64,000 nt of DNA, taken from the NCBI GenBank assembly GCA_942159475.1, contig OW804095.1, positions 150,216,808 to 150,280,807 of the forward strand, written 5' to 3'. The notes beneath the pieces are model-generated. The model searched no databases, was not told the DNA's origin, and saw nothing but the letters and a program-made list of their open reading frames with translations. A program made the position numbers and the translations under genes. The DNA comes from Sthenelais limicola (lineage: Eukaryota; Annelida; Polychaeta; Phyllodocida; Sigalionidae). Within the stretch, counting starts at the first letter, position 1; the number at the start of each line of letters is the position of its first letter. Positions 9,762 through 53,863 of this stretch are shown one piece after another.

Positions 9762-9996
9762 GGGTCAGATTTTCAGAAAATGTACAATTCAACTTCGCCA
9801 ATCTCCTCAAATAACCCAAATTACAGACGAAAATAAAGTTCAAAATACAGTTTAACCTAACCTAACAGATTGCTAGAATCAATGCAATGCCGAATATACT
9901 CGAATTTACCTAGTATTGACCAAATTGCAGCCTGATTTAGCAGAATTTACTAAATATGTACAGCTGCCGATTGTACATTTTCTGTAAATTTGACCC
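9762..9996 (-). mobile_element. M1 element, subfamily A
   Basis: Full-length copy with good TIRs. The flanks share only ATAC. Confidence 0.9.
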
Positions 9997-10349
9997 ATAC
10001 ACTCGAAAAACAAGATATATTTATGCCCTGGAAATGTATGTTTCCTATAATAAATCCCCCCTTCTGGAAGACATATGAATCTAAACCTAAATGACTTATA
10101 TATCAAATGAATTCTCCATAATTAAATCCGACATTTGGACATTTCATTGGCATATTTAAGGAAGAAAAACATCTTGTAAAATTGGCAAGTGGTCTGGGAC
10201 AGGTGCATAAATGGTATATATGCGTGACTTGCCTAGTTAGGCCTACCCGGGCTAACATACACACTCCTGCATAAATACAGACATACAAGGCAGGATGAAC
10301 TATTACTCACACATAGCGTATACGCATGGTATCAATATGACCATATTGG

Positions 10350-16397: not shown

Positions 16398-17690
16398 ATA
16401 TAATACTCATCAGATATTGAGGTACAGTGTGTGGTACCCATGCCTGTGTCTGTATTACCGGCTTATAGCCTTGAGATACCTGGAGGGTGCATATGTATAG
16501 GTGCAGGTAAGAAATCCAAGAATAGGGGTGGATGTGGAAGAACGGTACAAAGTGAAATTATTATGCCAGGGGGAGGGGCTGGATGAAGGCAACTCTGGAT
16601 TAAGTGTTGGGGAGGAAAGGTGCCAGTTGTCTATAGATCTGAGCATTTAAATACCATCACATTACAGAATTATGTTATATTTTGATTGAAGATTTCACGT
16701 CGTGAGTGCAAAATGCAAGGTATCCCAAATCTAAAACAATTTAAAAAGTAGACAAAATATTTGTGAGGCTGTCATCAATCTAAACATTCAAATCACAAAA
16801 AGAATTCAACATATATATTTGACATCATGCCAGATAGATTGCTTGAAACATGTATATGTAACTAATGTTAGAAGGCTAATCAATTCAACACAAATTATTG
16901 TGTGATCGTGTTCACGTAGTTAGTTTTCACTCATACAACCTGAGAAAAATATATTTATGACCGATGACCTGAAAGTAGAAGGAAGCCCTTGTGTTATTTT
17001 CCACTGTCAGAATCTGCCTAAACTATATAAATAAAACCCGAACTACTGACGCAAAAAAGAAATAATCCTTGCAAAATATGGGACCATTTTCACAAGTACT
17101 TCTTTGTATCGAACAGATCTATAACTGAGTATGATGTGGGTAGACGACAGGTGGACGTCAGTCAGCACGACGTGCAGAGAACGTCACGACGTGTCATCTC
17201 ATGGGGGTCAGGTGTTGGCGAGACTTTAGTGACGTGTACAAAGGCTTCCGGGGGTATTAAGCCGTGGGAGGAGATTAGTGCTTTATGTAGACAAGCAATT
17301 CTTAAGTGTTAATGTAGGATTGGGGAAGCGATTGGTTAATACCCTGTCGATCTGCTGCAGATTTAGCTACAGATGTTTGTGTCGATCGTTAGCTACTGTC
17401 AAGTAAATGAGCACTAATTTTCCTGCATCAAGGAAGTTGTGAGGTCAAAGCTTTTCTGTAACTATTTTGTACTTATATTTGTATTTTCGTAGGACTACAT
17501 GAATTCAACCTACCAAAGCAGGGCCAGACTCTACTAAGGAAACGCAAGGAATAAGCTCTGCTGTTGGAGGCTGACATGAATTAAGATAATAAATATATTT
17601 AGGAGGTGATTGGTTAACATGTATACAGTTGATCTGCTAATGTTCAAAATCGCCTGAAAATATACTGGATTTGTGCGAAGACTTATTTTG
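16398..17690. other. Noncoding stretch with an ACGT-rich cluster
   Basis: No gene. The block at 17151-17240 is enriched in GACGTCA and ACGTG-type motifs and is annotated separately. Confidence 0.5.
17151..17240. promoter_or_regulatory. Cluster of CRE/ATF-like ACGT motifs
   Basis: Within 90 bp: GGACGTCAGTCA, CACGACGTGCAG, AACGTCACGACGTGTCA and GTGACGTG. Repeated (T)GACGT half-sites resemble bZIP (CREB/ATF) targets. Function and target gene are unknown. Confidence 0.35.
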
Positions 17691-17875
17691 AGTCTAGGCT
17701 CAGAGTTGAGAGTGTCCCTCGAAACTGAGGGAAAACCTCTCGCAACAAACCGCAAACGCCATTAAAATCCCATTAGAACGCCTACTCTCCAGGACCAGGA
17801 AAGCCATTAGAGCAGTAAGCGTCAAATCACTGACATACCATTCTTATCTGATCTGAGAGGCTCGGAGCCTAGACT
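17691..17875 (+). mobile_element. M2 element
   Basis: The TIRs are AGTCTAGGCTCAGAG and its near complement CTCGGAGCCTAGACT. The interior has GTTGAGAGTGTCCCT, CGCCATTAAAATCCCATT and CAAATCACTGACATACCATT. TTTT is present on both sides and may be the target duplication. Confidence 0.8.
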
Positions 17876-18002
17876 GTTTTCCCTGGCCTAGTATTCCGTC
17901 TCCTTCATATATGTGGGCACCCAAACACTTGAACACCTCTTGAAAGTTACGTCATTTAAATACGAAAACGCACTCTCCGACCCCCAAGACTTCATTCATA
18001 GT

Positions 18003-19299: not shown

Positions 19300-19436
19300 G
19301 CTCCAAACCGCAAAATGCCATTAGAATCCCATTAGGACGCCTACTCTAGGACCGAGAATACCATTAGCGCAGTAGGCGTCCAATCACTGACATACCACTC
19401 CTATCTGATCTGAGAGGCTCTAAGCCTAGCCTGAGG
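19300..19436 (+). mobile_element. M2 element, truncated left arm
   Basis: Begins TCTAGCTCCAAACCGCAAAA and continues through GTAGGCGTCCAATCACTG to AGCCTAGCCTG. The left sub-terminal arm seen in other M2 copies is missing. Confidence 0.75.
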
Positions 19437-20217: not shown

Positions 20218-20603
20218 TTGTATTGAAAGGTGGTGTCTTGGCTCAGCTCGCTCGTGACATGGTGTTGTAACAGTCTTGGCTGCTTGAGCAGTGTTTGCTG
20301 ATTGTATTTCAGACACTCTCCAACTCCTTATTGAATCTTTCGTGAGATAAAATAACCCTAGTCATACATCATTATTCGCTGGTGGTGTTTTTTTGTGTTA
20401 AAGTTTTATGGGCTGTATACGGTGTGGTGAACTGCGCAAGTTTAATGTAGGCAGTTGGGCCGAGAGCGAAGTGCCATGGTCTTTATTAGCGCTGTATTTG
20501 TATATATAATATATGTAGGGGTATTTAGAATAGATTGGAAGTCAGGAGGGCGAAAGGGTTTATGACAAAGCTCGACCCCCATCCATGGGTGGTACTTGTA
20601 TAT
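20218..20603. other. Noncoding stretch
   Basis: No gene seen. TA-rich near 20500. Confidence 0.5.
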
Positions 20604-20838
20604 GGGTCAGATTTTCAGAAAATGTACAATTCGCCTTCACCAATCCTCTCAAATAACCCAATATTCAGACAAAAATAAAGTTCAAAATACAGATCAACCT
20701 AACCAAACACATTGCTAGAATCGATGCGATGCCGAATATACTCGAATTTGCCTAGTATTGACCAAATTGCAGCCTAATTTAGCAGAATTTACTAAATATA
20801 TAGTGCTGGCAATTGTACATTTTCTGAAAATCTGACCC
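20604..20838 (-). mobile_element. M1 element, subfamily A
   Basis: Full-length copy with near-perfect TIRs. The flanks share ATAT. Confidence 0.92.
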
Positions 20839-21332
20839 ATATGTAGTAAGTGCGAATGTATCACACATGCATGCGTGTACTACATGCTTGGTTGTTTCTG
20901 CAATTATAAATTGGTGACATTTGCATTGTAGAGTTTAAATTAAGTTTTTCTTTTGCGAGACCTAACATGCGTGTCAGAAACATTCTGAATATTGTTTTCA
21001 AGTTTATTTAGAATTTGTTGAACGATTTATCAATGGCGGTTTGACCAACTGGCGCAGGTGCCCATTGTGGAAAGTAAGTTTTGTAACATATCTGGCGCTT
21101 TCCATTCAACTTCTTAATTGATTTTCAAGCAGTTTTCCATAAATTCTGGTTCGGTCTGACGCCCAACTTTATACACATATCTAAAGGAAAATTTGTATTG
21201 ACCAAAGCCACGGAGAGATAAAGCCTTTACCCCTGCCGTGGTGCTTTTAAACTAGGAAATAAACATTGCATGCCACGATGCTTTACGTGGTCGGTTATTG
21301 CTTTTATATTCTTTTAAATGTAGGCAATGGTG
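20839..21332. other. Noncoding stretch
   Basis: No gene. The right part may be the body of R3 copy 3. Confidence 0.45.
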
Positions 21333-22495: not shown

Positions 22496-22525
22496 ACATA
22501 AGAGAGAGCCGACAGGAACTATATA

Positions 22526-22760
22526 GGGTCAGATTTTCAGAAAATGTACAATTCAACTTCGCCAATCTTCTCAAATAGCCCAAATTTCAGACGAAAATAA
22601 AGTTTAAAATACAGTTCAGCCTAACCAACCAGATTGCTAGAGTCAATGCAATGCCAAATATACTCGAATTTACCTAGTATTGGCCAAATTGCAGCCTAAT
22701 TTAGCAGAATTTACGTAATGTGTACAGCTGCCAATTGTACATTTTCTGAAAATCTAACCC
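22526..22760 (-). mobile_element. M1 element, subfamily A, with ~30-bp target duplication
   Basis: Full-length copy bounded by GGGTCAG and CTAACCC. The left flank at 22496-22525 and the right flank at 22761-22789 are the same sequence (ACATAAGAGAGAGCCGACA then RGAACT then TATA). They differ by one substitution and one base of length. This is the longest duplication seen in the family. Confidence 0.93.
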
Positions 22761-22789
22761 ACATAAGAGAGAGCCGACAAGAACTTATA

Positions 22790-32190: not shown

Positions 32191-32801
32191 GTATTGTATT
32201 GTATTGTAAAACATTTATTATTGACCGTGGTCACGATAAGGGGGCATTTCTCCGACATTGGGAGGTTTGCCAGCCCTCTTTAAGTCCTTACAAAGTTGAA
32301 TGGCTGCGAACAATTCCACTTTCGTCGGGGACGAAAGTGGCACACAGCAAATTATATATAAGTAATTACGGTTTTAATTCTTTCAACGTTGGAAATGTCT
32401 TGCATGTTAAATTAAATTAAAATAAAATAATATAAAATAAAATCTGATAGTCAGTTAAGTGTTCTTCATTCAGCTTGTTTTCTAAATATCGGTATCAAAT
32501 AACATGTTCAATCAATAGTGAGTTACAATAGCAAATATCAGATACAAAGTCTGATAAACAGTTAAATATACTGTTCAACGTAGTTTATAAGTTTTAAATG
32601 TCATACAGCGATATGATCAACGGTATGTTACAGAATCAAGTCAAACAACAGGTCATAAATACAATTCTTATGCATCGGTGTTTCAGGAGACAGCTTGACA
32701 ACAATAATAATAATGTATCAGGTCAATGGTAAATTGTGTTATCGAGGGTCAATTTACTAATATATTTTACAATGGTGTTTTGGGTGAAGAATATACATAG
32801 A
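32191..32801 (-). other. LINE 3' UTR and simple-repeat tail
   Basis: About 610 bp between the polymerase stop and a tail that reads AATAAATGTTTTACAATACAATACAATAC on the minus strand, abbreviated here as AATAAATG then (ATACA)n. Short tandem tails replace poly-A in many CR1/RTE-type LINEs. AATAAA may serve as the polyadenylation signal. Confidence 0.7.
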
Positions 32802-35786
32802 TTAATCAATAAAATTTTGGTCTTCCCAGATGGGGTTATGCCTTACATGTAATTTGAATGCCTGAGGATCTACTAGTCGATGTGCCACCGTTTGCAACTT
32901 ATTCCAGGAGAAAGTGATACGGTTTAATAAGGATTTCCTTAACTGTTCGTTCTTAGGTGTTATCTGTTTTAGTACCTTCCGACCTTCCGCGAAGTTTCTT
33001 GTATTTAATAATTTTAAATCAATATTCCTGGGGTTTTTTGCTAAACGATGTCCTGCCTGTAGTAGGTGCAGACGGCGGCGATGTTTTAATGGAAGTATTC
33101 TATTGTCAATATGTAGTTGCTCAACATTTGTCCTAGGTGGGAGCTTGAATATAACCCTGAGTATTTTATTTTGAACAATTTGCAAACGGTTTGTGCCTGA
33201 AGTAGCGTGTGAATCATGAAGTAAGTCGGTTTGGTCGATAAGAGGGAGAACCATGACCTTATATATAAGTAATAAGGTTTTTATGGGAAGCTTATCTCTC
33301 AGTTTGGCAAGTTGCCAGCTTTTATAATTTAATATGTTGGTTAAATTTTGCACTAATATTTTAAATTTAAGAGCTTTATCAATAATAATACCCAGGTATT
33401 TGTACTCGTTGACCTCCTCGAGGCTGCTCCCATCCAGGGTTATTACATTTCTTGGTTCTAGATATGCTTTGTCCTTTTCCCACCTCGACCTCAGAATGTT
33501 TTGACTAAAGAAAGTTTGTACCTTGGTTTTCCCTAAGTTAAGTGATATCTTACTTGTCTTACACCAATAGTTTAGTGAGTCTAAGTCAGTTTGTAATTTA
33601 TTAGTTGATTCTTGTATTGATTGTCCTGTGGCGTAAACTATGGTGTCATCAGCGAACATTTGTATGTTCGAATTTTGAATAAATTTTGGGAGGGAATTAA
33701 TATAAATAATGAAGAGGAGTGGTCCTAGGGTGGTCCCTTGGGGTACTCCACAGGTAACCGGGAGACTATCCGACTTGATCTTATTCACCGTCACTGACTG
33801 GTGTCTATTTGTTAGATAGTTCCTGAACCACTCTAGTTCCTTTCCTCGAATACCTGAGCAAGATAGTCTTGAAAGTAGATTAATATGATTTACGGTATCG
33901 AACGCTTTTCTGAGGTCGAGGTAGGCAGCCCTAACAATCAAACCATCATTAAGAGCGGCATAAACAGTGTTCAGATAGTTCACCATTGCATCTTGGGTTG
34001 AGTGCCCAGATCTGAATCCATATTGGGATTCGTACAAAATGTTGTTGTTTTCTAAATGAGAGGTTACTTGCTGGTGGATAATTTTTTCTAATATTTTGGC
34101 AGGTAATAATATTGTGGAAATCGGCCTATAATTACTTGGATTTGTAGTACATCCAGCCTTATATAATGGTGTTACTGCGGCTGTTTTCCAGCTTACAGGT
34201 ATAATAGCCTTTTCATAAGTCATATCAACAAGTTTAAGAAATTGTATGGCAAGTATTTTAAGCGATAGCTTTAATAACCAAGCTGGGAGGTCCTTTACAC
34301 CCGACGATTTACTGGAAGGTATAGAATCGATTATACGTTTTAGGTTAATAACTGTAGTCGGTCTATACCTGAATTGGGCTTGTGTTTCTTTTTTTGTTTC
34401 TTTTATTATATTATCGTACTTTCTGTCTTCAGCAATGTCGGGTGTTTGGATCTGGTCAGCGAGCTCATTACCAATGGAGGCGAAAAAGTGGTTAAATGTG
34501 TCAGGGACTGCTTCTTTAGGAATTTCCGTATCATTTTCTTTTAGGATTATATCTTTATAGTGTGGTCGAGTTTTACCATTAATAAGTGGGCCTAAAGTAG
34601 TCCAGAGTTTTTTGGGGTTACTTTTGTTTTGTTCGATTTCGTTTTTTATATAATTGTTTTTTAAATTTCTTGCTAAATGGTTTACTCTTCTTCTAAGTTG
34701 TTTTGCTTTATCTTGAAGCCCAGAATTTTTAAGCTTCCTCGAAGCTTTAAATAGTTGATCTCTGGATTTCATGAGGTCAAGGAGTTCAGCTGTAATCCAC
34801 GGTTTTTTCGCTCTCACATTGGTTTTTTCATAAATTGGACAAGACTTATTAATTGCATTCATTATGGCTTCTAACATATTCTGCCAACAGGTTTCAGGAT
34901 CTGAGGATTCTAGCAATTTCACCCAGTCGTTGGACAACAGATCATCGGTTAAAACTTCTTCGCCGAAGCGTCTATAAGATCGACACCTAAAGCTTATCTT
35001 TTCATAAGTCTCTTTACATTTCTTTATTATGGCAAATATTGGCTTATGGTCGCTTATATTGATGTTGATTGTGCCACACTTCGATATAAATTTAGAACTT
35101 GAGAATAAAAGGTCAATTGTTGTTTGAGTAGTGGTGGTGATTCTGGTGTGTAATGTTATGAACTGCTTCAGCGAAGTATTATTCTCAATTGTTTGTAACT
35201 GAGATTTTGCTGGGGAAGAGGAGCTATAGTCCACATTGAGATCCCCAACCAGGACCAGCGTATCACTATTATCTATTTTTTCTAAAATTTCCATAATTAC
35301 ATCAATAGCTTTAGTTAGGTTGCCACTTGGGCTCCTATAAGTATTGATTATCGTTATGGTTTTATTTTGGTTTTGCTTAATCCTAATTGTTTGGATCTCA
35401 ATGTCCACCGAACAATGCTGTACATCATCACTAATTGGCAAAATTTCATATTTATCCGCTACATAAGTAATAAGCCCACCTCCAGTTTTTTTTTCCGTTT
35501 GTCTATCGTTTCTGATCTGGTTATAACCATCCAACTTAATCATGTTATCATAGACTTTTTTGTCAAGCCAGGTTTCGTTAATACATATCACCTGTGTTTT
35601 AAATTGTTCAAACAATGTATCAATCTCCTCAATCTTATTTAATAAACTTCTCACATTTAAGCTGATTATTTTAAAACCTTTTGTTTCATTGAAACTTACA
35701 CTATCACTGAGTGATAGATCTACATTACCAACGTTTATCTTTGTGTCTCTCGGTGCTGACACTATCTGACCTAATTGGGTCAGCAA
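32802..35786 (-). CDS. LINE endonuclease-reverse transcriptase
   Basis: 994 residues, uninterrupted. The APE-type endonuclease occupies about residues 36-256, with Asn44 (SLNVRS), Glu71 (INETW), Asp182/Asn184 (VGDLNVD), Asp225 (TIDLLF) and Ser-Asp-His at 245-247, a complete catalytic set. A basic linker (about 330-400) precedes the reverse transcriptase (about 520-790). The RT has NYRPIS (552-557), AYLDLRKAFD with Asp624 and Asp630, GVPQGTTLGP (680-689) and FADD with Asp713/714. A C-terminal region with Lys/Arg/His-rich RRRLHLL follows. It nicks target DNA and copies the LINE RNA by target-primed reverse transcription. No stop or missing catalytic residue is seen. Sequence style is that of the CR1/Rex/L2 group, judged by eye. 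Confidence 0.95.
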   Translation of the reverse strand: MLTQLGQIVSAPRDTKINVGNVDLSLSDSVSFNETKGFKIISLNVRSLLNKIEEIDTLFEQFKTQVICINETWLDKKVYDNMIKLDGYNQIRNDRQTEKKTGGGLITYVADKYEILPISDDVQHCSVDIEIQTIRIKQNQNKTITIINTYRSPSGNLTKAIDVIMEILEKIDNSDTLVLVGDLNVDYSSSSPAKSQLQTIENNTSLKQFITLHTRITTTTQTTIDLLFSSSKFISKCGTININISDHKPIFAIIKKCKETYEKISFRCRSYRRFGEEVLTDDLLSNDWVKLLESSDPETCWQNMLEAIMNAINKSCPIYEKTNVRAKKPWITAELLDLMKSRDQLFKASRKLKNSGLQDKAKQLRRRVNHLARNLKNNYIKNEIEQNKSNPKKLWTTLGPLINGKTRPHYKDIILKENDTEIPKEAVPDTFNHFFASIGNELADQIQTPDIAEDRKYDNIIKETKKETQAQFRYRPTTVINLKRIIDSIPSSKSSGVKDLPAWLLKLSLKILAIQFLKLVDMTYEKAIIPVSWKTAAVTPLYKAGCTTNPSNYRPISTILLPAKILEKIIHQQVTSHLENNNILYESQYGFRSGHSTQDAMVNYLNTVYAALNDGLIVRAAYLDLRKAFDTVNHINLLSRLSCSGIRGKELEWFRNYLTNRHQSVTVNKIKSDSLPVTCGVPQGTTLGPLLFIIYINSLPKFIQNSNIQMFADDTIVYATGQSIQESTNKLQTDLDSLNYWCKTSKISLNLGKTKVQTFFSQNILRSRWEKDKAYLEPRNVITLDGSSLEEVNEYKYLGIIIDKALKFKILVQNLTNILNYKSWQLAKLRDKLPIKTLLLIYKVMVLPLIDQTDLLHDSHATSGTNRLQIVQNKILRVIFKLPPRTNVEQLHIDNRILPLKHRRRLHLLQAGHRLAKNPRNIDLKLLNTRNFAEGRKVLKQITPKNEQLRKSLLNRITFSWNKLQTVAHRLVDPQAFKLHVRHNPIWEDQNFID

Positions 35787-36095
35787 GTTGGCCTAACCCA
35801 TACCACAACGGTGGTAGTTCTCTATATCATTAGGAAATAATCTAGAGAAATTCCTTTCTATATACAGTAGTGATAATAATGACAAATTGTGGGAGCTTCG
35901 GAGAAGCAGCCACAGCATTGGGAGAAGAAAACATCCCTGCTTTGAACTAACACATCATGGTAAATAATAAATGGAACGAACAACTTATGGTGGTTTGGAC
36001 GGAGAGATACGTGAGTAATTACCTGGTGTTTTCTTATAACATCAAACGACACCTTTAATAAAGATTTCTACTCACGATTACGTGTCCATACTTAG

Positions 36096-36761
36096 TTAAA
36101 AGTCATATAGTATTGTGCGGTTATGCATCGCTATGTCCAGGCGGTCGACCATGCGTCCTATTTGCTTGGACCAGTGGTCGTAAGCTCTCTCGGTCAGATG
36201 GCATCCATCTATGTCAAGGCGGCAGTAGTAATTCTGTTTGCTTCCTTTCGTATTGTGGTGGACGAGATCTGCCAGATATGGGGTGGGGTAACCTCGCACC
36301 TCATTCCTCTGACGAATAGCGAGGTTCACTTCTGTTACGGTGTGGTTCAGGAGGATTTGCTGTGTATTGTAGTGCTGCCCATTGTATGTAGCTAGGTGCA
36401 TACCTGTTACTGGGGCGAATATAATATTCGCTTGGCACGGGAATAAAGCTTGCTTGGTTCTGGTTTCGACCGTTTCCATATCAGCCTTGTACACTTCGAC
36501 TGCTTTGTTTATAGTGGAGTGAGCCACTGAGACAATACCGTCTTTTTTTCTAGTTAAGGTACAGAGGCCAGCAGCAAATATAATTGTACCAGGCCTGACA
36601 GAACGGATGCGATCCTCTGCCATGAAAGACGAGAGCTTCAGTGAAGCCCCCGCGAAAGACATGACTTGTAAATGCTCGAAGCGAGGTTCGGACAAATATG
36701 GTTGCAAGTAGGGCTTGATGTCACGTATGCGTGAGTCGCCGACCAGGAATATGGTAGCCAT
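36096..36761 (-). CDS. LINE-encoded SGNH-hydrolase-like protein
   Basis: 221 residues. SGNH/GDSL esterase fold: block I is FLVGDSRIRD with Ser10, block II is SFAGAS with Gly38, and block V is DIDGCHLTERAY with Asp185 and His188. The block III position reads GLCTLT and lacks the usual Asn, so the oxyanion hole is altered. Esterase domains are known in the ORF1 proteins of CR1-type LINEs. Here the domain is a separate ORF, 107 bp after ORF1 and about 310 bp before the polymerase ORF. It may act on lipid or acyl esters, or serve only as a structural module. Esterase function is uncertain because of the missing Asn. Confidence 0.8.
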   Translation of the reverse strand: MATIFLVGDSRIRDIKPYLQPYLSEPRFEHLQVMSFAGASLKLSSFMAEDRIRSVRPGTIIFAAGLCTLTRKKDGIVSVAHSTINKAVEVYKADMETVETRTKQALFPCQANIIFAPVTGMHLATYNGQHYNTQQILLNHTVTEVNLAIRQRNEVRGYPTPYLADLVHHNTKGSKQNYYCRLDIDGCHLTERAYDHWSKQIGRMVDRLDIAMHNRTILYDF

Positions 36762-36868: not shown

Positions 36869-37753
36869 TTAGTTTTGCTCTAACTTTAGCTCTGTAAGAA
36901 TTTTACCGAACTCATTACCCGTGACACGTGTGGGGTCGAATCGTTGATCTCCGATTCGGAAACCAGTGCCCCACTTTCTATCTTTAGTCATTTCGAAGAA
37001 TTTGGTTTGAGGAGTGTTCTTTAGTTTCTGCCCTAAGTCTTTGTTTTGGTGAAATTTTAGTCTTACAATACCTTTGAGTAATTCTCGCTCTTTGGTTTGC
37101 CAACTAGCTCCCGGTGTAATGTTCGCGGCCTTGCGTTTGAGAACGTATGGGTCATCAATGTTTCCCATTTCTAGTGCGAGTTTCGTATTCTGGGGAGTTG
37201 GATTATCTTGAGCTTTCGCAATCTGAAAAGCTTGCTCTACAGAGCTGTAAATTGCACCTTTATACCAAAAATCTTTTTGGAAAAAGTTAGACAGATATAC
37301 GTGGTCTCCCTGAAACCCTAAAGCATTTACATTGGGATAGATTTGGGTTTTCAGATCGTACGGGGTAGCTCCGCTTGGGAGAAGGTGAAGGTCGTCGTAA
37401 TGGTATGTTTGATCATTGTGAATCAGGTGATTTGCACGAATGGTTGGTTTCTCAGTTGGTTTCAACGCAGTGAGAGCCTTACCACATTGGCGTATAAGGG
37501 CACTTTTCCTATTGGTCTCATCAGGGATGTCCTTATTTATCCAAAGATTGTCCATTTGCGCATGGTCTTTGATTTCTTTTGCCTGTTTCAATATTTGATC
37601 TCTCATATGAACTGTTGTCAGGGATAGAACAATAGAGCGGGTAAATTTTGGGTTAAACTTTCCTCTCCTGTAAGCATGATCTATATGGCTTTGGTCAAAT
37701 TGATCAACTGTAGGGGCGATAAGATTGAAGAAATAGTCGTCAAAATTTTCTCC
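36869..37753 (-). CDS. LINE ORF1, 3' portion: RRM/CTD plus C-terminal NADAR domain
   Basis: Continues ORF1 in the shifted frame for about 294 residues; the first Met in this frame is at 37606. The upstream part (AYRRGKF, SIVLSLTTVHMRDQIL, NLWINKDIPDETNRK, then YDDLHLLPSG) matches the RRM end and C-terminal domain of L1-like ORF1 proteins. Counting from Met 37606, residues about 96-245 are a NADAR domain: YLSNFF (104-109), SSVEQAFQIAKA (121-132), a helical middle, KDRKWGTGF (208-216) and GNEFGKILTEL (230-240) correspond to the FSNF, SVEHAYQ, WGxG and GNxLGKILM blocks of YbiA-like proteins. Family members cleave N-glycosidic bonds of ADP-ribosylated or riboflavin-pathway substrates. That this copy is active is inference from conserved blocks. 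The fusion to a retrotransposon ORF1 is unusual. Confidence 0.85.
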   Translation of the reverse strand, partial: GENFDDYFFNLIAPTVDQFDQSHIDHAYRRGKFNPKFTRSIVLSLTTVHMRDQILKQAKEIKDHAQMDNLWINKDIPDETNRKSALIRQCGKALTALKPTEKPTIRANHLIHNDQTYHYDDLHLLPSGATPYDLKTQIYPNVNALGFQGDHVYLSNFFQKDFWYKGAIYSSVEQAFQIAKAQDNPTPQNTKLALEMGNIDDPYVLKRKAANITPGASWQTKERELLKGIVRLKFHQNKDLGQKLKNTPQTKFFEMTKDRKWGTGFRIGDQRFDPTRVTGNEFGKILTELKLEQN

Positions 37754-38736
37754 TTTTTTTCTGGAACTCCTTGGATAATTAGATTTTTATTTCTTATCTT
37801 AATATCCAGAAGTTCATTTCTGTGATCAGCTTCAAGGAGTTGAGCTTTGAGTTTTGCGTTTGAGCGTGCCGATTGGGCCAGTAATCCCTCAAAGTTGGTT
37901 TGCTTGCGCCCAAAGTCTCCGATTTTCCTGTTAGTTTCGTTTAAGATTCCTTGGTCGGTAGGTAAAGCTTGAGCCTTAGTGCTTATGTCATCTTTCATTT
38001 CTCTGATGTGGGTGTCCCATGCAAGTTTCTCCTTCTTCACCCCTTCGTTTAAGATTTGAATATGTACATCAAGTTGGGTTTTGATCAGCGAGTTGAGTTT
38101 TTCAGGGCCAGTTCTTGTTTTTATTTCTCCAAGATTTTGCTCAATTTCCCCTAGGCGCTTGTCATACTTTTCCTGCCTTTTTAGCATTTCTTGTGAAGCA
38201 CTCTTTATCTTTTCTTCGATTTGGGCTGTATGGGTTTTAAGGGTTGTTTCATTGTGCTTTTTAAGTTCCTCTAAGGAGGTTTCATTGTGGCGTTTTAGGT
38301 CTTTCACTAATTCGGCAAAGTAGATTTTCAATGGATCAGTCAATGGGTCAGTCATTTCATTGGATGGTGGTTGAGGCGAATCTGTTTGCTGCTGTGAATT
38401 TGCATTTTGCAAATCCACCGATTCCTCATCTCCCTGAACTAACTCTAGAGGTGCCGCATAAATTATCTCTTGCGTGCACTCGGGTGACCCCGATGCCGGT
38501 TGTTTTGTTTGTTCGGCTGTCAGTGACGCCGTTTGTGAAGTGGTTTCTTCCATTTTCCCAATAGTATTCGATGTATTTATCCTTTCTGAGGATCGTCTTT
38601 CAGAACCCATTTTCTGTGGCGATCTGATATAAAGTTTTAGAGTTTTAGCTTCAGTCTCGTCAGAAATGATGCGTCTCAAAGCGTAAGGTAGTCGTTTGTT
38701 GGTACGTGTGGTCGGATCTGCGTTGTCATCGCCCAT
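37681..38736 (-). CDS. LINE ORF1, 5' portion (coiled coil and start of RRM)
   Basis: 351 codons in this frame. ORF1 proteins bind LINE RNA and act as nucleic-acid chaperones in the ribonucleoprotein. The N-terminal 130 residues are polar and low-complexity (Thr, Gln, Ser, Pro). Residues from about 135 to 300 form a heptad-like coiled coil rich in Lys and Glu, with HNETSLEEL and HNETTLKTH as an internal repeat. From about residue 312 the sequence reads IRNKNLIIQGVPE, the first strand of the L1-type RRM. After PEKK the frame runs into an unrelated 23-residue tail and a stop. The homologous continuation lies in another frame, so this ORF is broken at the A7 run at 37754-37760, or it is joined there by slippage. 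The first Met is at the natural 5' end; no better start is seen. Confidence 0.85.
   Translation of the reverse strand: MGDDNADPTTRTNKRLPYALRRIISDETEAKTLKLYIRSPQKMGSERRSSERINTSNTIGKMEETTSQTASLTAEQTKQPASGSPECTQEIIYAAPLELVQGDEESVDLQNANSQQQTDSPQPPSNEMTDPLTDPLKIYFAELVKDLKRHNETSLEELKKHNETTLKTHTAQIEEKIKSASQEMLKRQEKYDKRLGEIEQNLGEIKTRTGPEKLNSLIKTQLDVHIQILNEGVKKEKLAWDTHIREMKDDISTKAQALPTDQGILNETNRKIGDFGRKQTNFEGLLAQSARSNAKLKAQLLEADHRNELLDIKIRNKNLIIQGVPEKKEKILTTISSILSPLQLINLTKAI
37754..37760 (-). other. A7 run with frame change in LINE ORF1 (slippery A_AAA_AAG)
   Basis: On the minus strand the codons are GAA AAA AAG GAG, so the heptamer A AAA AAG lies in the zero frame. A one-base backward slip would enter exactly the frame that encodes the RRM/CTD and NADAR part. 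A one-base deletion in a homopolymer, or an assembly error, explains the break equally well and is more likely. Confidence 0.6.
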
Positions 38737-38850: not shown

Positions 38851-38966
38851 TTCTGGTGGTACTGTTTATATATTGTCCAAGTTAGTTTTGTGGCATGTTT
38901 TGTGGCATGGCACGAGTATGCAGGCGTTTTGTTGCTTATTTAGGAATGATTCAATATTTCCTTTTC

Positions 38967-39131
38967 AGCCTAGGCTCAGAGCTGAGAGAGTCCCTCCAAA
39001 CTGAGGGAAAGTCCCAAACAGCAAAACCCCATTAGGACGCCTACTCCAGGCCGGGAAAGCAATTAGCGCAGTAGGCGTCCAATCACTGACATACCATTCT
39101 TATCTGATCTGCGATGATGTGAGCCAAGACT
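38967..39131 (+). mobile_element. M2 element
   Basis: TIRs AGCCTAGGCTCAGAGC and GAGCCAAGACTG. The interior has GAGAGAGTCCCTCCAAAC and GCGCAGTAGGCGTCCAATC. TTTT lies on both sides. The middle is shortened relative to 45676-45886. Confidence 0.78.
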
Positions 39132-39891
39132 GTTTTCCTCATTTCAGGTTGTAAAGCCTTTCAGAGTAAAGCCTTTCAAACCAAAATAGGCAGGTGGGGG
39201 AAATTCACAAATCTGTTCTCTTCGGCATAACGCAATTATTGGGGCGGTAGCATACATTGGACTACCGTATCTGTAAATGGAAATTTATTAAAGTAAAAAT
39301 ATTAACATAAATTGGACATTAGTACGCGATATAATAAATTTAAAAGAAGTGAAGCTTTAGTGCTACATTCTGTGTTTAATCTATAATATATGATCGCGCA
39401 CCGAAGTGGCTTGTTGTCCAGATGTCTAGTCATATATTCAACGCCTCTCCACCATAACTTGTACCAGTCGCGTACAACATTAAAAAGTGCTATTACAACC
39501 ATCCATCACAAACATACACACCCTTTTACCATAAACCCTACCGACCACACATCTTACAGTCAATCCCCCAGCAGCGGGGTAATGTTTAGTTGTTCCTTTA
39601 ACCACACAGGCAGGGGTTGGCCATAGGACATAAATCTCCTGTGTTCTGACCACGAGTTCTCTACCTGCTATTTTTACAGGTAAAGTGATCCTACATCAAG
39701 GTAGGGTCCAGTGCTGTGAACACAGGTGTGGTTTACAGGCTGGACTGTATGTAGTTGTTACCCCATGTAAAGGTAGAGGGTCGGAGAGACTCGTCCGAGG
39801 CTTGTTGTTTACATTGAATACTTGCTTCTCTTTCAACAAGTGCCAGGAACAATATAGTGCCCTTCTTCGTCATAACAAGGAGGGGGCATAT
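39132..39891. other. Noncoding stretch
   Basis: No gene recognised. Short open frames overlap on both strands. Confidence 0.5.
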
Positions 39892-45471: not shown

Positions 45472-45915
45472 GAGTCAGATCTTCAATAAATGCACAATCG
45501 GCAGATCTACACTTTTGGTAAATTCTGCTAAATTAGACTGAAAACGGGAAATACTCGGTATATTTGAATATATTTGATATTGCCTTGATTCAAACAATCT
45601 GTTGGGCTAAGTTTAACTAAATTTTGAACATTATTTTTGTCTTGAGTTATTTGGGACGATTGGAGAAGGCGAATTCAGTCTAGGTCCAAAGTTGAGAGAG
45701 TCCCTTCAAACGAAGGGAAAGCCTCTCGCCTCAAACCGCAAAGTGCCATTATAATTCCATTAAGACCGCAAAATGTCATTATATTCCCATTAAAACGCCG
45801 TCCTGGGTGGGGAAACTGATTAGCGAGGTAGGCGTCCAATTACTGAAATAGGATTCTTATCTGATCTGAGGGTTTGGACCTAGAGTGAATTGTACACTTC
45901 CTGGCGATTTCCCCC
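45472..45915 (+). mobile_element. M1 element, subfamily C, split by a nested M2
   Basis: Left end GAGTCAGATCTTCAATAAAT and right end TTCCTGGCGATTTCCCCC. The interior (AATACTCGGTATATTTGAAT, GAACATTATTTTTGTCTTG) matches the copy at 12794-13020. Removing the nested element restores a contiguous M1. Confidence 0.85.
45676..45886 (+). mobile_element. M2 element nested in M1
   Basis: The most complete M2. TIRs CAGTCTAGGTCCAAAG and GGTTTGGACCTAGAGTG. The sub-terminal hairpin pieces AGTCCCTTCAAACGAAGGGA are self-complementary. AATT (or GAATT) is duplicated at the host M1 sequence on both sides. Confidence 0.9.
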
Positions 45916-49485: not shown

Positions 49486-49706
49486 CAATCCAGGTCCAAA
49501 CCCTCAGATCAGATAAGAATGGCATGTCAGTGATTGGACGCCTACTTCGCTAATCGGTTTCCCAGCCTGGGACTAGGCATTCTAATGGGATTATAATGAC
49601 ATTTTGCGGTAATAATGGAATTATAATGGCACTTTGCGGTTTGAGGCGAGAGGCGAGAGGCTTTCCCTCAGTTTGAAGGGACTCTCTCAACTTTGGGCGT
49701 ACACTG
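49486..49706 (-). mobile_element. M2 element
   Basis: Reverse copy of the 45676 type, with left end CAATCCAGGTCCAAACCC and right end CAACTTTGGGCGTACACTG. It contains a small GAGGCGAGAGGCGAGAGG stutter. GACTGT is found at both flanks. Confidence 0.85.
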
Positions 49707-53173: not shown

Positions 53174-53629
53174 TTTTATGACCAATCCACTCCAAGATTT
53201 AGTTAGTGACAACATGTGAGGAGTATTTGATGAAGGTAGAGAATGTGACCATGTTAACATTAAACACTGCTCTTTATTAGCTTTACGTCTAACTCAGGCA
53301 TTGATTACATTGTCTAAATTATAGGGCTACTGCTCATTTATATCCATTCCACAGACTCACCTTCCTGCCTCTCTGATTAATTTCACAATAATTGCAATCA
53401 GGAAGGAGATGACTGATACAGGTCGATGCGCTTAATTTGAGCTCATACACTATAAAAACAATCATTATCTGGCCTTACAGTTCTACCTTCTAAATACGGC
53501 TTTACACCGAGAATATTCTTTTTTTTTTTTTTTACAGTGGTAGGAATTCTATTTGAATTGAATTTTATTAACTAAGGTGGATATTACTGGGTATTACGAA
53601 GAAATCTCCTCTTCATCCTATTGAGATAT
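53174..53629. other. Noncoding stretch
   Basis: No gene. Contains a T15-type run near 53519-53534. Confidence 0.5.
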
Positions 53630-53863
53630 GGGTCAGATTTTCAGAAATTGTACAATTGGCAGCTGTACACATTTAGTAAATTCTGCTAAATTAGGCTGCA
53701 ATGTGGTCAATACTAGGTAAATTCGAGTATATTCGGCATTGCATTGATTCTAGCAATCTGTTTGGTTAGGTTGAACTGTATTTTGAAGTTTATTTTCGTC
53801 TGAAATTTGGGTTATTTGAGAAGATTGGCGAAGTTAAATTGTACATTTTCTGAAAATCTGACC
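53630..53863 (+). mobile_element. M1 element, subfamily A
   Basis: Full-length copy with left end GGGTCAGATTTTCAG and right end TCTGAAAATCTGACC. Confidence 0.92.

Follow-up and report, generated by a model that had tools for sequence, protein, structure and literature searches.

A NADAR domain carried by the L1-type ORF1 protein of a LINE in the polychaete Sthenelais limicola, a possible ribosyl N-glycosidase of the retroelement RNP

A minus-strand LINE of at least 6.5 kb, composed of ORF1, a short ORF, ORF2 and a 3' tail, lies in the 64-kb stretch of Sthenelais limicola contig OW804095.1 analysed here (the window), and its ORF1 protein appears to join an L1-type RNA chaperone to a C-terminal NADAR domain of the YbiA type. 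LINE ORF1 proteins are RNA chaperones, and L1 ORF1p binds the RNA of its element in many copies. With confidence slightly short of even, it is proposed that the fusion protein acts as a ribosyl N-glycosidase held on the element RNP, which would undo marks set by host ADP-ribosyltransferases. The reading is backed by the NADAR profile and fold, 11 relatives, five conserved active-site residues and the presence of NADARs in animal RNA viruses and an Ectocarpus Gypsy lineage, while departures at R79, D130 and Y84, further departures of the window at G78 and R93 and the broken frame of ORF1 count against it.

The identity of the element is given by ORF2 (32805..35792, minus strand), in which Pfam matches to Exo_endo_phos_2 (E 3.5e-9) and RVT_1 (E 1.1e-34), the FADD and SDH motifs and a match to L1 ORF2p (E 8.3e-26) were found. 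A single ORF thus encodes both an endonuclease of the APE type and a reverse transcriptase (RT), as in LINEs (non-LTR retrotransposons). In place of the TGTRQGCPLSPLLF of human L1, the RT contains CGVPQGTTLGPLLF, a type of motif which we take to mark the Jockey superfamily (CR1/L2) and not L1/Tx1, and the RT of the window looks to be of the CR1/L2 kind rather than L1/Tx1; a literature search with two RT motif strings gave no match. The repeat tail (ACAAT)3.6 at 32191..32208 of the same strand presumably represents the 3' end of the element, while searches for the 5' end and for a target-site duplication found neither. The first ATG of ORF2 falls within the endonuclease, and directly upstream the same frame reads ATG-GGT-TAG, which together with a frame break in ORF1 suggests that this copy is damaged and probably not active. 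When the four ORFs of the element were used as tblastn queries against the 64 kb, they matched only themselves, and no other copy of the LINE was found there.

Between ORF1 and ORF2 lies the minus-strand ORF 36099..36761 (first ATG at 36761, open frame to 36785), whose product has GDSR close to the N-terminus and DGCHLT close to the C-terminus. It is perhaps an SGNH/GDSL-type esterase, like those of some other LINEs; its match to PF00657 is below the cut-off (E 0.21), the single-sequence model has a pLDDT of 32 and no match was found in the PDB.

The DNA around the LINE is judged to be animal from its sequence. A 989-aa ORF on the minus strand (5688-2719) shows significant similarity to cadherins in six stretches (Pfam E 1e-97) and is predicted to be a protocadherin-like host exon. 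Short repeats are abundant across the window. Repeats of about 240 bp occur in both orientations and many copies, for example at 20600-20842, 53626-53863, 9763-9999 and 22524-22764, with about 82-95% identity in the best pairs among the matches listed, and they are classed as MITE-like owing to the perfect 32-base terminal inverted repeat of the copy at 20600-20842. A second family of about 190 bp was seen at 38962-39138, 17686-17882, 19325-19433, 49505-49701 and 45674-45868; its copy at about 38962-39138 is directly upstream of ORF1 and belongs to either the LINE 5' region or the host flank.

ORF1 is spread over two minus-strand frames. The N-terminal part (37684..38736), comprising a charged region that resembles a coiled coil and the first portion of the RRM, is contained in ORF 38760-37681 with its first ATG at 38736, and the NADAR-bearing ORF of 305 aa extends from 37786 to 36869. 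In 200 mononucleotide shuffles of this region, by comparison, open frames reached at most 126 aa. The two frames join, with a -1 change of frame, at a run of seven A residues (37754..37760; T7 on the plus strand), which in the upstream frame is split as A AAA AAG. A AAA AAG is a classical -1 slippery heptamer. A programmed -1 frameshift at this site was considered and rejected, as the frame changes within the RRM and all 11 relatives are continuous across the site in the alignment, although the relatives were chosen by length, which favours unbroken proteins and misses frame-broken ones. With the same bias in mind, the unbroken relatives suggest that the break is most likely damage of the window copy or an assembly error.

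The NADAR domain occupies residues 161-301 of the 305-aa ORF (36884..37306, minus strand), as located by profiles, fold and alignment. The four motifs listed by the first-pass annotation were recovered in one minus-strand frame, namely YLSNFF (37297-37280), SSVEQAFQIAKA (37246-37211), KDRKWGTGF (36985-36959) and GNEFGKILTEL (36919-36887), but its placement of the domain at residues about 96-245 was wrong, as the domain covers residues 150-290 even when counted from 37753. The L1-like RRM/CTD module that it had described before the NADAR is present, yet split by the break at 37754-37760, with the N-terminal part in the other ORF. The profile search and structure prediction that it had named as checks both agree with a NADAR: the domain matches Pfam PF08719 at E 2.9e-14 (54.1 bits; cut-off 35.1) and phrog_1017 at E 4.1e-19, and its predicted model has the YbiA fold, which is not independent of the sequence match since the alignment behind the model held viral NADARs. 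The model is further matched by modelled NADARs from giant viruses and phages, as well as by a segment of an RNA-virus polymerase protein. TIGR02464, the model for the riboflavin-intermediate N-glycosidase, matches at E 2.7e-14, but the 53.7 bits fall short of the equivalog cut-off of 73.7.

The L1-type character of ORF1 is recognized through its family. The remaining RRM and the CTD occupy about 37337..37765 on the minus strand, with approximate boundaries taken from the alignment with the relatives. A profile built from 12 sequences (the window and 11 relatives) matches the LINE-1 ORF1p structures 2ykp (E 1e-7) and 2yko (E 1.1e-7) over profile positions 73-222, and also NADAR structures (E 2.7e-20 and 1.7e-15). 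Part of the ORF1p score is supplied by the coiled coil, and 2w7a and 2ldy, which are matched from profile position 125 on, reach only E 0.043 and 0.059. Taken alone, the RRM-CTD of the window has no match in Pfam or the PDB, and no coiled coil was detected in the window's own protein, whose best heptad score of 0.70 is below the shuffled 95% level of 0.725; the window ORF1 is therefore assigned to the L1 type via the family alignment. The predicted model of the RRM-CTD part is of low confidence, with block means of about 36-65. For the family, the succession of coiled coil, RRM and CTD in the profile and alignment indicates an L1-type (type II) ORF1.

Only the full-length ORF1 query reached the relatives. 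No relative came from protein searches in which the query was the 305-aa ORF (338 candidates, E ≤0.001) or the isolated NADAR segment (3 candidates, E ≤1), and scans of viral contigs with the NADAR ORF, the EN-RT and the SGNH-like ORF gave 1, 8 and 16 pattern matches, respectively, none of them confirmed. The full-length search, with words and scoring taken from residues 295-621, yielded 11 proteins at E ≤1 among 2032 candidates, all of them at E 1.4e-19 or better. These proteins of 416-664 aa align across coiled coil, RRM, CTD and NADAR in one open frame; all 11 are labelled NADAR (by a precomputed label for P0010), and the Pfam NADAR cut-off was passed by each of the 10 relatives scanned, P0010 being outside the scan, at E 3.3e-22 to 2e-29. 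We infer from the type of their ORF1 that the relatives belong to LINEs, in which each would stand in front of a reverse transcriptase. The fusion of a NADAR to an L1-type ORF1 claimed from the single copy is thereby backed by profile, fold and relatives, and the same domain order was indeed found elsewhere, in 11 ORF1-like proteins. The window and its relatives share on average 20.6% identity in the RRM, 22.0% in the CTD and 32.3% in the NADAR, the last being the best-conserved part of ORF1 in this comparison; invariant columns were counted with P0007 and P0010 left out. Nine of the 11 relatives continue after the NADAR with a C-terminal tail of about 190-230 residues containing conserved blocks such as DGxLDxxKxxxWxLPxL, while P0007 and P0010 end early. 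Different from these nine, the ORF1 of the window stops at the NADAR.

In a tree of 47 NADARs (P0010 and L059 left out), the 11 LINE rows form one group with a support of 93/46, which is not decisive, and the branches of the window and of the oomycete NADAR 8bau are long. Beside the LINE group stand 8bau and one viral row. The viral rows represent 35 of 65 loci, some trimmed at their ends; the loci omitted were near-duplicates, cut ones, NADARs in very long ORFs and some distinct loci whose N-terminal extensions were long or unclear (for example L010, L011, L015 and L016). The simplest reading of the sequences would be a single uptake of the NADAR followed by descent within ORF1. The NADAR of a 9.4-kb viral contig (L012:131-565) groups beside the LINE and oomycete NADARs, apart from the other viral rows (99/98).

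The active site was compared with the crystal structure of a NADAR with ADP-ribose from P. nicotianae (8bau), for which the contact residues are described (PMC11543638); with residue numbers set to chain index minus 2, all 13 named contacts fall on the right letter. Exchange of E88, K95 or D171 in the E. coli C7 NADAR, equivalent to E43, K50 and E125 of P. nicotianae, is reported to harm activity (PMC11543638). The active-site residues of the window are E184, K191, W229, E265, D269 and W272. Among them E184, K191, W229, E265 and W272, corresponding to P. nicotianae E43, K50, W89, E125 and W133, are kept in all 11 rows counted (the window and 10 relatives; P0010, whose frame is apparently lost near the NADAR end, was excluded), as is K75. 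The glutamate of the catalytic centre of the YbiA subfamily (E125, window E265) is therefore E in 11/11 rows, and the residues reported as important for guanine-ADP-ribose hydrolase activity (E43/K50/E125) read E, K and E throughout.

Other ADP-ribose contacts of 8bau, which have not been shown to be defining, depart at R79, Y84 and D130. The pyrophosphate-binding R79 is replaced in all 11 rows (D in seven, S in two, A and G in one each), and D130 in nine (N in six, S in three), the window being one of the two that read D. For comparison, the 35 viral rows have R or K at the R79 position in 26 cases and D at the D130 position in 34, and YbiA retains both residues. A counterpart of Y84 is missing from all 11 rows, and likewise from YbiA and 34 of the 35 viral rows; D86 is not kept in the LINE NADARs, nor in YbiA or nearly all viral rows. 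The window alone carries A in place of G78 and E in place of R93, the latter being K in its 10 relatives. As judged from the alignment, the LINE NADAR family has preserved the ribose-cleaving centre but carries a change of the phosphate side peculiar to itself, and the combination is most readily accounted for by an active enzyme whose substrate has shifted. Retention of the key residues known from the crystal structure fits the enzyme inferred by the first-pass annotation, whose antidefence role is conjectural, while the loss of R79 in 11/11 rows calls for caution about ADP-ribose or ADP-ribosyl guanine as the substrate.

According to published work, NADARs cleave N-glycosidic ribosyl bonds in riboflavin intermediates and guanine-linked ADP-ribose, and guanine de-ADP-ribosylation has been demonstrated for several subfamilies, one of them eukaryotic (PMC11543638, PMC11125620). 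They are described as rare in animals and absent from vertebrates (PMC9303266), with unclear roles across eukaryotes (PMC11125620). In the mechanism proposed, ORF1p would coat the element RNA, so that the NADAR would be held on the RNP in many copies, and the RNP would carry it to the site of reverse transcription. There it would strip element RNA, cDNA or target-site DNA of ADP-ribose or a similar ribosyl adduct, by which marks set by host ADP-ribosyltransferases would be undone. In view of the altered pyrophosphate side of the pocket, a compound other than guanine-ADP-ribose may be the actual substrate. No host enzyme for the ADP-ribosylation of LINE nucleic acid was named in the literature searched. 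Conservation of an enzyme domain for ribosyl adducts would imply a matching substrate in the LINE life cycle, and a conserved active site with a family-specific pocket change in a selfish element would be a handle on whether invertebrates ADP-ribosylate retroelement nucleic acid. That an animal LINE family employs a NADAR with a retuned active site to erase a host N-linked ribosyl or ADP-ribosyl mark from retroelement RNA or cDNA, as a counter-defence, is considered unlikely; if true, it would be evidence for a nucleic-acid ADP-ribosylation defence in invertebrates.

The strongest rival, of which we are doubtful though it retains a fair share of the probability, assigns the NADAR to RNA processing, as an enzyme or binder which would see an NAD-derived group such as an NAD cap at the 5' end or a ribosyl terminus produced by RNA repair, and aid the selection or maturation of the element RNA. 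The analogy is the nematode NADAR protein SNA-3, which is reported to act in spliced-leader trans-splicing, to be needed for RNA processing and to lose its function when NADAR residues are exchanged (PMC9303266); SNA-3 also makes a role outside defence equally possible. The position of the NADAR on an RNA-binding type of ORF1p, the changed pyrophosphate side of the pocket and the processing of RNA intermediates suggested in another report (PMC12477816) agree with this alternative, but mere binding would not demand the equivalents of E43, K50 and E125, which are fully kept. A domain for structure or host binding with no catalysis would be in keeping with the departures at R79 and D130; five active-site residues invariant in 11 rows, despite only about 32% NADAR identity between the window and the rest, make it improbable.

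A metabolic role, in which damaged small molecules of the riboflavin pathway or derived from NAD would be cleared, or NAD tuned locally, with no action on nucleic acid, is held to be marginally less probable still. YbiA-type NADARs are described as acting on riboflavin intermediates (PMC11543638, PMC9303266) and the TIGR02464 match points the same way, but its score lies below the equivalog cut-off and the fusion to a protein of RNA-binding type points to a nucleic-acid context. It is very improbable that a host NADAR gene or another element was accidentally joined to the LINE in the window copy: the broken frame of ORF1 could be taken in that sense, yet the same order in one open frame recurs in 11 other proteins, and a host NADAR gene merely lying beside the LINE is contradicted by the same fusion in these relatives.

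The short ORF recalls the esterase ORF1 of the ZfL2-1 type (PMC3905857), since an SGNH-type enzyme, putative in the window, would lie outside ORF2 in both LINEs; the esterase of ZfL2-1 is described within ORF1, in an account that names no NADAR, whereas that of the window would be a separate and weakly supported ORF. The NADAR-ORF1 fusion itself is not new, as several Tx1 families among the LINEs of Crassostrea gigas are reported to have ORF1 proteins that appear to contain YbiA-family NADAR domains (PMC12477816). The earlier remark that this is not a standard LINE architecture is correct, then, but the architecture was already known; by titles and abstracts, no further report of a NADAR in a LINE was found among the matches listed. 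Both the Tx1 elements and the window carry a YbiA-family NADAR in an animal LINE ORF1, and the 11 relatives may derive from such elements. Compared with the published description of the Tx1 elements, the window would differ in its apparently CR1/L2-like RT and in the SGNH-like ORF after ORF1.

L1-type (type II) ORF1 is reported in the CR1 and L2 lineages, with transfer of ORF1 proposed between them (PMC4120745), which by analogy makes it plausible that an ORF1-NADAR module could move from one LINE clade to another. The window resembles these elements in having a coiled coil, a single RRM and a CTD before an APE-RT ORF of presumed CR1/L2 kind, while the additional domains described for them are PHD, esterase and CCHC, with no NADAR named in that description. 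An Ectocarpus Gypsy lineage is likewise a retrotransposon with an acquired NADAR, but it is an LTR element with the domain in Pol, and searches with its NADAR are reported to have retrieved almost only bacterial proteins (PMC12477816). Animal RNA viruses, whose NADAR sequences stood outside the tree, carry the domain in their polyproteins, and undoing of host ADP-ribosylation has been proposed for them (PMC9503650). They share with the window the carriage of a NADAR by a selfish RNA element and differ from it in the absence of reverse transcription.
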